Assembly (NCBI RefSeq): GCF_004348115.1
Contig: NZ_QPFB01000001.1
Coordinates: 535,978-599,977, forward strand
Source: Stenotrophomonas sp. ATCM1_4
GTDB taxonomy: Bacteria > Pseudomonadota > Gammaproteobacteria > Xanthomonadales > Xanthomonadaceae
Length of the DNA stretch: 64,000 nucleotides
Direction: 5' to 3'
The notes beneath the pieces are model-generated. The model was not told where the DNA came from, made no database searches, and worked only from the letters and a program-made list of their open reading frames with translations. Positions 31,152 to 34,109 of the stretch are shown in pieces. The position numbers were made by a program, and so were the translations under genes. The first letter of the stretch is position 1; each line of letters begins with the position of its first letter.

Positions 31152-32216
31152 TCAGTACGGCGCCCCGGCGGTAACGATGGTCAGTACCAGTGCCACCAGC
31201 ATGGCGGCCGTGAACAGCAGGGGTTTGACGCGCAGCGCGGGCGGGGGCTGCCTGCCGTCCGGCTCCGGCTCCGGCGCCATGCGTCGGATCAGACCTTCGG
31301 GGAAATGCTGGAGCACCATCGCCTCGTCGCAGGCGTCTTCGCAGGCGCCGCATTCGATGCAATGGCTGGAATGGCCATTGCGGATATCCAGCCGGATCGG
31401 GCACGCCTGCAGGCAGGCCCCGCAATCGGTGCAGTCGCCCAGGTGCTCGGGGTTGAACTTGGGCAAGGCGCCGGCAATGGCCGGATGGGCGGCACGAAAC
31501 ACGTAGTCGTTGGCGGTCACCGGGTCGAGCAGCCCGCGCGAGCGATGCAGCACGCTCGGGCCGCCGTGTGGGCGTGGGCCGCGCGGCTCGCCGCGCGCGG
31601 CGATGTAGCGGACGGTGGGCGTGCGTGCATCGGTGATCAGGTGCTGCACGCGGCTGTAGGGGCACAGGTGGCTGCAAACCTGTTCATGCAGGTAGACCAC
31701 GTTGGCCCAGGTGGCCAATGCGTAGAAGACGATCCAGAAGCCTTCCCACATGCCCAGCGAAAAATGCGTCAGGTCATGGATCAGGCCGCCGATGGGGCTG
31801 AAGTAGCCGACGAAGCTGATGCCGGTCCACAGGGCGATGGCGGCCCACAGCACATGCCGCAGCGCCGGCCCGAAGCGGGCGGCCGGGCCATCGAAGGCGG
31901 TGAGCTGGTCGAGCGTGCGAAATACCCGGGTCAGCACGGTCTGCGGACAGACATGGCTGCACCACAGCCGGCCGCACATCACCGTGACCAGGCACAGCAA
32001 TGCGGCGGCCGCGGTGACCAGCCAGAACAGGGGCAGGGCGTTCTCCGGCTGCAGGCTGTACCCGAACAGATGGAACCGCCGCGCCGACAGGTCCAGCAGC
32101 AGGATCGGCTGGCCGTCCAGCCGCAGCCACGGCAGCAGGTAGAACGCGGCCAGCAGCGCCAGCGCGACGGCCGTGCGCAGCGCGGTGCGGGCGCGCTTGC
32201 CTTGCGACAGGCTCAT
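31152..32216 (-). CDS. ccoG: CcoG/RdxA/FixG-type iron-sulfur protein, short form
   Basis: A 354-aa inner-membrane ferredoxin-like protein. The family helps copper delivery to cbb3-type oxidase by reducing Cu(II). It has several transmembrane helices, CGRLWCSHVCPQ and CSHLCPYSRVQH pairs, and two 4Fe-4S motifs, CTDCGACLQACPI and CIECGACEDACDE. Typical CcoG proteins are near 470 aa with a periplasmic Ig-like C-terminal domain. This one stops after its last membrane helix (LLFTAAMLVALVLTIVTAGAPY). A terminator follows at once, so there is no split downstream part. It overlaps the upstream small-membrane-protein gene by 4 nt. Confidence 0.85.
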   Translation of the reverse strand: MSLSQGKRARTALRTAVALALLAAFYLLPWLRLDGQPILLLDLSARRFHLFGYSLQPENALPLFWLVTAAAALLCLVTVMCGRLWCSHVCPQTVLTRVFRTLDQLTAFDGPAARFGPALRHVLWAAIALWTGISFVGYFSPIGGLIHDLTHFSLGMWEGFWIVFYALATWANVVYLHEQVCSHLCPYSRVQHLITDARTPTVRYIAARGEPRGPRPHGGPSVLHRSRGLLDPVTANDYVFRAAHPAIAGALPKFNPEHLGDCTDCGACLQACPIRLDIRNGHSSHCIECGACEDACDEAMVLQHFPEGLIRRMAPEPEPDGRQPPPALRVKPLLFTAAMLVALVLTIVTAGAPY

Positions 32217-32503
32217 TCGAAGGCGCTTCCGTCGTCGGCATCCCTGCGCGGGCGCAGCAACAACGCGGTGACGGCGCTGGCCGAGGCGGTGGCCAGCCAC
32301 AGCAGCAGGAAGCCGATGGTGTAGCCCAGTTCGCGGCTGATGCCGTGCTGCGGCAGGCTGATGGCGGCCAGTTTGAGGGGGTCTACCACCGAGAAGAACA
32401 GCGCAGCGGCGACCACGGCGGCGAAGAAGCTGGGCCAGAGCACCGCGCCAAGTTGCTGTGCGGCAGGGCGTAATGAAGGCGGCGCAGGGTCGATGTCGTT
32501 CAT
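32213..32503 (-). CDS. Small two-helix membrane protein upstream of ccoG
   Basis: A 96-aa hypothetical protein with two hydrophobic helices (VLWPSFFAAVVAAALFFSVV and TIGFLLLWLATASASAVTAL), a Pro-rich N-terminus and a charged C-terminus. I do not recognise its family; it does not look like CcoH or CcoS. Its stop overlaps the ccoG start (ATGA), so the two are coupled. It is the first gene downstream of the FNR-type boxes, which suggests a role in cbb3 oxidase assembly or low-oxygen respiration. Confidence 0.75.
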   Translation of the reverse strand: MNDIDPAPPSLRPAAQQLGAVLWPSFFAAVVAAALFFSVVDPLKLAAISLPQHGISRELGYTIGFLLLWLATASASAVTALLLRPRRDADDGSAFE

Positions 32504-32617
32504 GGGTTCCGGAGAGAGGAGCGGGGCCGGTGCCGCGCGCCCGTGGGGGAGGCGGGTACGCGATGGATGGGCGCAATGACGAGGACCGCAGCCTAGAAGG
32601 CGATCGCGCCGAAGGCC

Positions 32618-32631
32618 TTGATCTGGATCAA
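32618..32631. promoter_or_regulatory. FNR/Anr box 1 (perfect)
   Basis: TTGATCTGGATCAA is an exact match to the FNR/Anr consensus TTGAT-N4-ATCAA. It lies between the divergent ccoG operon and hemN, 69 bp before the hemN ATG and 115 bp before the other start. Confidence 0.8.
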
Positions 32632-32650
32632 GCCATGGGCCGCGGCCGGA

Positions 32651-32664
32651 TTGATCTGGCTCAA
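32651..32664. promoter_or_regulatory. FNR/Anr box 2 (one mismatch)
   Basis: TTGATCTGGCTCAA differs from the FNR consensus at one position (C for A in the second half-site). It shares the N4 spacer CTGG with box 1 and ends 35 bp before the hemN ATG. Confidence 0.65.
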
Positions 32665-32699
32665 GGCGCGGCCAGCCCGGCTGGCAGATCCTAGGCGCC

Positions 32700-34109
32700 A
32701 TGGACACGAATCCCGTACTGCTGAACCCGCTGGGCTGGACCTTCGACCCGGAACTGCTGCGCCGGCATGATCGTCCTGGGCCGCGCTACACCTCCTATCC
32801 CACGGCGCCGCACTTCCATGACGGCTACGGCCAATCGCAGCTGCAGGCCGCCATCGCACGCAGCAACACCTCGGCGCGGCCGCTCTCGCTCTACGTGCAT
32901 GTCCCGTACTGCACCAGCCCCTGCTTCTACTGCGGCTGCAACCGGGTGATCAGCCGTGACCGCAGCAAGGGCGAGCACTACGTGGACCAGGTGCTGCGCG
33001 AGGCGGACCGCGCCGCGCCGTTGTTCGACCCGGCCCGCGAAGTCATCCAGCTGCACCTCGGCGGCGGAACGCCCAACTTCCTGGAGCCGGCGCAGCTGCA
33101 GCGGTTGCTGGAAGGGCTAGGAAAACGCTTTCGTTTCAGCCCGCGCGCCGAGCGTGATTTCTCCATCGAACTGGACCCCCGTTCGGTCAGCGTGGCCGAT
33201 ATCGCCGGACTGGCGGCGCTGGGCTTCAACCGCGCCAGTCTTGGCGTGCAGGACTTCGATCCGGACGTGCAGCACGCCATCAACCGCGTGCAGGGCGTCG
33301 ATGACACGATGGCCATCCTCCAGGCCTGCCGCGACAGCGGCATGCGCTCGGTCAACGTGGACCTGATCTACGGCCTGCCGAAGCAGACGCTGGCCGGTTT
33401 CGGGCGCACGCTCGACACCGTGATGGCCGTGCGTCCGGATCGCCTGGCGATCTATGGCTACGCGCACCTGCCGCACATGTTCAAGGCGCAGCGCCAGATC
33501 CTCGATGCCGACCTCCCCGATCCGGACCAGAAGCTGGCCCTGCTGGGATTGGCGGTGGAACGGCTGTCGGCGGCAGGCTACCAGTACATCGGCATGGATC
33601 ATTTCGCCCTGCCGGAAGAGGATCTCGCGCGCGCCCAGCGGGCGGGCAGCCTGCATCGCAATTTCATGGGCTACACCACGCACGCCGACACCGACCTGCT
33701 GGGGCTCGGGGTGAGCGCCATCAGCCGCATCGACAACAGCTACAGCCAGAACCCGCGTGATCTCAAGGACTGGGAGGCGCGCCTGGAAGCGGGAGGCTTG
33801 CCGGTCTGGCGTGGCCTGGAACTGGATGCAGATGATGTGCTGCGCGCGGCGCTGATCCAGGAGCTGATGTGCCATGGCCGGGTGGACGGACGTGCATTGG
33901 GCCGTCGCCATGGCGTGGACTTTGACCGCTACTTCGCCGACGAGCTGCAGGCGCTGCGCCGCCTGGAGCAGGACGGGCTGGCCAGCTGCCGGGATGGCGT
34001 GGTGGCCGCCACGCGCCAGGGGCGCCCCCTGCTGCGCCTGATCGCGATGTGCTTTGACCGTTACCTGAAGGCGCCCCAGCAACCGGCCCGCTATTCACGC
34101 GCGATCTGA
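32700..34109 (+). CDS. hemN: Oxygen-independent coproporphyrinogen III oxidase
   Basis: Radical-SAM enzyme that decarboxylates coproporphyrinogen III to protoporphyrinogen IX without O2, for haem synthesis under low oxygen. The 469-aa product has GPRYTSYPTAPHF near the N-terminus, the 4Fe-4S motif VPYCTSPCFYCGCNR (CxxxCxxC), GGGTPNFL, SVNVDLIYGLPKQT, and the HemN C-terminal domain. Its length matches HemN (457 aa in E. coli), and the N-terminal extension separates it from HemW. Two FNR boxes lie upstream; Anr control of hemN is established in Pseudomonas. The Shine-Dalgarno is weak. Confidence 0.96.
   Translation: MDTNPVLLNPLGWTFDPELLRRHDRPGPRYTSYPTAPHFHDGYGQSQLQAAIARSNTSARPLSLYVHVPYCTSPCFYCGCNRVISRDRSKGEHYVDQVLREADRAAPLFDPAREVIQLHLGGGTPNFLEPAQLQRLLEGLGKRFRFSPRAERDFSIELDPRSVSVADIAGLAALGFNRASLGVQDFDPDVQHAINRVQGVDDTMAILQACRDSGMRSVNVDLIYGLPKQTLAGFGRTLDTVMAVRPDRLAIYGYAHLPHMFKAQRQILDADLPDPDQKLALLGLAVERLSAAGYQYIGMDHFALPEEDLARAQRAGSLHRNFMGYTTHADTDLLGLGVSAISRIDNSYSQNPRDLKDWEARLEAGGLPVWRGLELDADDVLRAALIQELMCHGRVDGRALGRRHGVDFDRYFADELQALRRLEQDGLASCRDGVVAATRQGRPLLRLIAMCFDRYLKAPQQPARYSRAI

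Follow-up and report, generated by a model that had tools for sequence, protein, structure and literature searches.

Two FNR-type boxes between divergent genes

Two FNR-type boxes stand close together between divergent genes in the window (the whole 64-kb stretch of Stenotrophomonas DNA analysed here), which raises the question of whether they act jointly or whether each serves a promoter of its own. The first-pass annotation had named both options. It had described an exact site at 32618 and a one-base-off site at 32651 with centres 33 bp apart, and our scan found precisely this arrangement (centres at 32624.5 and 32657.5). It had also described FNR-type boxes between divergent genes, given as hemN and a ccoG unit. 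The divergent arrangement and the hemN assignment both hold, but ccoG is not the gene that adjoins the boxes on the left. That gene is a small ORF of 96 aa, which runs from 32503 down to 32213 and overlaps the ccoG-like gene (32216 down to 31152) by 4 nt. The features are listed below; the promoter elements, transcription starts and box roles are predictions.

Box 1: 32618..32631, strand not applicable; exact FNR-type palindrome TTGATCTGGATCAA, 0 mismatches to TTGAT-N4-ATCAA; predicted class II activator site (-41.5) of the leftward small ORF-ccoG promoter
Box 2: 32651..32664, strand not applicable; FNR-type site TTGATCTGGCTCAA, 1 mismatch to TTGAT-N4-ATCAA; predicted class II activator site (-41.5/-42.5) of the hemN promoter
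hemN: 32700..34109, + strand; oxygen-independent coproporphyrinogen III oxidase, 469 aa; TIGR00538 537 bits, above cut-off
Small ORF: 32213..32503, - strand; 96 aa, membrane-protein-like; no Pfam or NCBIfam match; homologue directly before ccoG in the cbb3 operons of relatives
Short CcoG-like protein: 31152..32216, - strand; 354 aa; TIGR02745 245 bits, below the cut-off of 316.7
Predicted -10 element TAGGCT of the leftward promoter: 32590..32595, - strand; 22 bp from box 1
Predicted -10 element GATCCT of the hemN promoter: 32687..32692, + strand; 22 bp from box 2
Predicted leftward transcription start: near 32583, - strand; leader of ~80 nt
Predicted hemN transcription start: 32699..32700, + strand; at the A of the ATG or 1 nt before it, from class II geometry and the box-to-ATG distance

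Five FNR-type sites with at most one mismatch occur in the window against 0.39 expected, and none of 100 shuffles reached five. The genome-wide motif scan proposed by the first-pass annotation returned nine exact TTGAT-N4-ATCAA sites across the 4.19-Mb genome.

Each box keeps its own -10 element

We carried out the comparison with Xanthomonas and other Stenotrophomonas that had been suggested for this region. The loci came from the window's own genus, Stenotrophomonas (g1, 91 genomes, including Stenotrophomonas humi), from g7, to which the named Xanthomonas loci L024-L026 were assigned by similarity, and from the related genus g29. Each box keeps its own -10 element, and in most loci the two boxes flank a globin gene. 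On the leftward side, 62 of 63 loci from these three groups (window included) have a TAnnnT hexamer exactly 22 bp from the upstream box, and none of the 63 has one at any other gap between 14 and 30 bp. Similarly, on the hemN side the genus-averaged fraction of loci with xAxxxT at gap 22 is 0.95, and other gaps give 0-0.05. With a gap of 22 bp, the centres of box and -10 element are 32 bp apart on both sides, which is the class II position. In the window, box 1 has an xAxxxT-type hexamer on its left only (TAGGCT), the gap-22 hexamer to its right being ATCTGG, and the hemN element GATCCT matches the consensus at only 3 of 6 bases. Because this geometry is conserved in relatives, the assignment of one box to each promoter is supported, as one of the two earlier options had it.

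The nine exact sites of the genome, sorted as intergenic or in-ORF by ORF reading, show the same element: all five intergenic sites (L011, L012, L013, L017 and L018) have xAxxxT at gap 22 on at least one side, and none of the four within long ORFs does.

The 33-bp spacing probably follows from a missing globin gene

In 44 of 50 readable Stenotrophomonas loci and in all 10 g7 loci, a truncated globin of 145 aa, which we take to be of group III, is encoded between the boxes in the same orientation as hemN, and the boxes in these 54 loci are 470-604 bp apart. The globin of G195 matched PF01152 (Bac_globin) with 30.2 bits against a cut-off of 21. It was not found in the 3 g29 stretches or in the 22 stretches of other genera. 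Within Stenotrophomonas, the gene is present in 85 of the 91 genomes and missing in the window genome (G000) and in G029, G211, G212, G215 and G264. When the 91 genomes were searched for close box pairs (gap 10-40 bp, strict half-sites), such pairs appeared in eight, and the six that adjoin hemN are exactly those of the six globin-less genomes, with spacings of 33, 35, 45, 31, 43 and 31 bp in the order just given. The G212 pair is identical to that of the named Stenotrophomonas humi locus L022. The 33-bp spacing is secondary and probably results from the missing globin gene.

The other two close pairs, L059 (G240) and L062 (G274), have no hemN nearby. Globin matches with an internal stop codon were seen in G198, G199, G242, G245, G246 and G270, and could reflect either decay or a frame-end effect. 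At L092 (G270) and L094 (G210), the small ORF-ccoG unit, the globin and an exact box occur, but the stretch retrieved shows no hemN beyond the globin.

In a 45-row tree of CcoG, the small ORF and the HemN N-terminus (35 of the 91 genus genomes), the globin-less genomes form two lineages, G000/G029/G212/G264 and G211/G215, each with support of 100/99 or better, and a single clade of six is rejected (p-AU 0.003). Because the six fall in two lineages, the globin gene was probably lost twice, leaving both boxes intact each time. A 23-row tree (13 of the 91 genus genomes, support 100/99) had hinted at a single loss, which the 45-row tree rejects. A 63-row tree of the HemN N-terminus did not uphold a single loss either: it gives three changes, with one clade of six not rejected (p 0.21). 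The promoter geometry is independent of the number of losses, so our confidence in the main explanation is the same for one loss or several. On its globin side box 1 also has xAxxxT, at gap 22 in 27 of the 54 loci and at gap 21 in 14, so it may have acted in both directions, including on the divergent globin gene in relatives.

The hemN start codon lies at a fixed distance from box 2

We gathered 88 Xanthomonadaceae loci: 41 from the 154 hemN-positive genomes of the family, 4 close-pair loci, 40 globin-containing stretches of the genus and 3 named Xanthomonas loci. Three lacked a hemN start (L092, L094 and L102) and were left out, and the remaining 85 span 21 genera, with 50 from Stenotrophomonas, 10 from g7 and 25 from 19 other genera, so that 60 of the 85 come from two genera. 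With up to two mismatches allowed and the in-frame ATG closest to 42 bp chosen, the distance from the centre of box 2 to the A of the hemN ATG is 41.5 bp in 60 loci, 42.5 bp in 23 and 43.5 bp in 2, that is, in all 85. A blind rule, taking the best box and the most upstream in-frame ATG, still placed 68 of the 85 at this distance, and none of 4250 mononucleotide shuffles of the upstream DNA reproduced it. A single in-frame ATG precedes the conserved RYTSYP motif in 61 loci. An SD-like match before hemN reaches 4 nt in 4 loci and 3 nt in 37, and is absent from 44, as counted without a control set.

The -10 element ends 6-7 nt before the ATG, so transcription would be expected to begin with the ATG itself or with the base that precedes it. 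Because the distance from box 2 to the ATG is constant at 41.5-43.5 bp, we predict that the hemN mRNA is leaderless.

We also drew a comparison set from other gammaproteobacterial families, taking one genome per family for 40 of 82 hemN-positive genomes. With at most one mismatch, none of the 40 has an ATG at 41-44 bp from a box. With up to two mismatches, 12 of the 40 have a box no more than 120 bp from a possible start, mostly at 60-70 bp; an ATG at 43.5 bp occurs in one (L149), and L162 has a TTG at 42.5 bp. L149 (G412) has a two-mismatch box, and the leaderless geometry may extend beyond the Xanthomonadaceae.

The leftward unit matches the tail of a cbb3 operon

The CcoG-like protein gives no full-length match over the cut-off to TIGR02745, its best stretch ending at model position 219 of 435, and a domain scan of its 354 aa found no match to the FixG C-terminal (Ig-like) domain. 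A genome-wide profile search returned no CcoN over the cut-off in the window genome, and the earlier label of cbb3-oxidase assembly is therefore misleading. No ccoN is listed for any of the 9 Stenotrophomonas and 7 g7 genomes listed with a ccoG-like gene, and it is missing in 86 of the 91 Stenotrophomonas genomes. In G028, ccoN, ccoO, ccoQ, ccoP, the small ORF and ccoG run divergently from hemN (ccoO, ccoQ and ccoP being identified by eye), and G162 and G123 share this order for hemN, ccoN, the small ORF and ccoG. Judged by gene order, the window's small ORF-ccoG unit matches the tail of such an operon (ccoNOQP-small ORF-ccoG), with the front genes absent. The unit may have arisen by duplication instead of operon decay, because five of the 91 Stenotrophomonas genomes carry ccoN with ccoO and its own small ORF and ccoG at another locus, plus a separate short-ccoG unit. 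G198, G199 and G241 keep the hemN-linked unit in addition to the separate ccoN operon. In G210 and G270, which also have such an operon, the small ORF-ccoG unit adjoins the globin, with no hemN in the stretch.

G199 has two CcoG forms (L163 and L168), one of 516 aa in the ccoN operon and one of 370 aa adjoining hemN. The small ORF (32213-32503, - strand) resembles a two-helix membrane protein and is perhaps an undescribed protein of cbb3 operons. CcoG is a cupric reductase, and short homologues without the Ig-like domain occur in species without cbb3 oxidase, according to the available text of PMC7558416.

One FNR-like regulator and the main low-oxygen regulon

Eight proteins of the genome match the Crp-type helix-turn-helix, and only L001 and L002 also carry a cNMP-type domain. 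Five of the others are of Rrf2, GntR or AsnC type, and the eighth, L005, is below the cut-off and outside that scan. L002 scores as CRP (319 bits, over cut-off). The first-pass annotation had presupposed an FNR homologue in the genome, and L001, encoded ~170 kb from the boxes, is FNR-like, though it misses both NCBIfam cut-offs (FnrL 159 bits, cut-off 300; Fnr 112 bits, cut-off 228). Its ORF matches PF13545 and PF00027 over cut-off and aligns with solved FNR structures. The recognition helix reads METVSR against VETISR of FNR, with E-x-x-S-R retained, and the candidate ligands for the [4Fe-4S] cluster, for which FNR proteins use four cysteines, comprise an N-terminal C-X2-C-X7-C and an aligned central VC, the third N-terminal Cys lying two residues further than in FNR. 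This displacement presumably fits FnrL-type proteins. On these features, L001 appears to be the one FNR-like (FnrL/FNR-like) regulator of the genome, beside a CRP type.

Other intergenic exact boxes precede the genes for haemerythrin, cydA (cytochrome bd) and ompW, and a further one lies ~330 bp upstream of a lytic transglycosylase gene. Because exact boxes also precede cydA, haemerythrin and ompW, the boxes at hemN would belong to the main low-oxygen regulon and not, as had been suggested, to a separate branch of it. The box before the haemerythrin gene (L011; G000:C1:525382, ~10.6 kb left of the window) is identical to box 1, TTGATCTGGATCAA, with TAGAGT 22 bp away; an SD-like stretch noted by eye would make this gene a leader-bearing contrast to hemN.

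Alternative explanations

Joint action of the two boxes would mean that FNR dimers cooperate on one helix face at a spacing that is itself functional; besides its class II site at -41.5, each promoter would then have a second FNR bound at about -74.5. Each box does lie at about -72 to -87 of the opposite promoter in the six close-pair genomes, and the effects of a second FNR in E. coli make mutual influence physically plausible: an additional upstream FNR permits activation at many positions and represses strongly at -85 to -95, as described in the available text of PMC11264516. The window's second box, at -74.5, falls outside this zone, and those of G211 (-86.5) and G215 (-84.5) are at its edge. 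The appearance of close pairs in two lineages can also be read as selection for them. However, the six spacings (31, 31, 33, 35, 43 and 45 bp) are not tied to whole turns, and in the 54 globin-containing loci each box still has its own -10 element across 470-604 bp. We therefore consider joint action improbable, and helical-phase cooperation across about three turns is disfavoured as the cause of the 33 bp.

It is about equally doubtful that hemN has a normal leader, whether through a promoter further upstream, which in relatives would be that of the globin, or through a start codon further downstream. The weak -10 element of hemN fits this, and in relatives transcription of the globin gene, which is upstream on the same strand, could read through. 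In the window, however, ATCTGG, to the right of box 1, is not an xAxxxT hexamer, and the box-to-ATG distance is fixed while the box-to-box distance varies; the single in-frame ATG before RYTSYP at 61 of 85 loci and the scarcity of 4-nt SD-like matches (4 of 85, without a control set) also argue against a downstream start or a leader. The half-site TTGAT is common to FNR, ANR and DNR-type regulators, and with the sub-threshold match of L005 this leaves some room for another CRP/FNR regulator (Clp or DNR-like) at the boxes. We regard this as very unlikely, given that only L001 and L002 have a cNMP-type domain, that five other candidates are of Rrf2, GntR and AsnC type, and that L002 scores as CRP, for which the expected site is TGTGA-N6-TCACA. 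Chance resemblance could be argued from the four of nine exact genome sites that are inside long ORFs. Its probability is negligible: it is refuted by the conservation of both boxes at fixed geometry, and the strongest argument against it is that relatives carry both boxes, each at a constant distance from a -10-like hexamer.

A probable compact divergent control region

We consider it probable, with good confidence, that two class II promoters of the FNR regulon, each independent of the other, stand back to back here in one compact, divergent control region. A fall in oxygen would lead the FnrL-like regulator to bind both boxes. At box 1, polymerase would be recruited leftward (-10 TAGGCT, start near 32583) to transcribe the small membrane-protein gene and the short ccoG; at box 2, it would be recruited rightward (-10 GATCCT, start 32699-32700) to transcribe hemN, whose mRNA would begin at the ATG or one base earlier. 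In relatives, box 1 probably also drives the divergent truncated-globin gene between the boxes. The missing globin gene would have left the boxes 33 bp apart in the window, and likewise close together in the second Stenotrophomonas lineage. The left-hand unit would be the tail of a cbb3 operon, under an FNR promoter of the same geometry.

More tentatively, and with rather less than even confidence, we propose that a leaderless, FNR-driven hemN, with its FNR site ~42 bp from the start codon, is a feature of the whole family, and that it stands beside an independent, FNR-controlled unit of small protein and short CcoG, which has persisted after loss of the cbb3 oxidase and whose copper reduction now benefits other haem-copper oxidases or low-oxygen copper tolerance.

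The region offers a sharp test case of a regulator site fixed to a start codon, and not to a leader, across a bacterial family. It would also be a divergent control region that kept its geometry amid gene loss, with an oxidase operon of which only the tail is present and a globin gene probably lost twice. In addition, the orphan short CcoG is a candidate low-oxygen gene in a genome with no detected cbb3 oxidase.

Comparison with known systems

Among the papers listed by a literature search, none was seen to deal with this hemN/ccoG promoter region. We compared it with related systems. As in other gammaproteobacteria with FNR/ANR-controlled hemN, an FNR-type box stands upstream of the gene (12 of 40 families). 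In those families the box-to-start distance is mostly 60-70 bp, which leaves room for a leader (L149 and L162 are exceptions), whereas in the Xanthomonadaceae it is 41.5-43.5 bp. The class II promoters of E. coli FNR similarly have a site at -41.5, and the tandem-FNR promoters among them (yfiD and engineered melR) a second FNR site upstream, as far as the available text of PMC11264516 describes them. In contrast, the window's second site would belong to the divergent promoter, and gene loss would account for the close pair.

The hemN/ccoNOQP-small ORF-ccoG region of a related genus (G028, G162 and G123) has the same boxes, gap-22 -10 elements, small ORF and ccoG. There the oxidase genes are present and the boxes are 69-174 bp apart, whereas in the window the oxidase genes are absent. 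Finally, the short CcoG is, like CcoG and short homologues such as YccM, an iron-sulphur membrane protein by similarity, and like YccM in the available text of PMC7558416 it is a short form found without a detected cbb3 oxidase. Unlike these, the window's gene is near hemN under a predicted FNR-type promoter and scores below the TIGR02745 cut-off.
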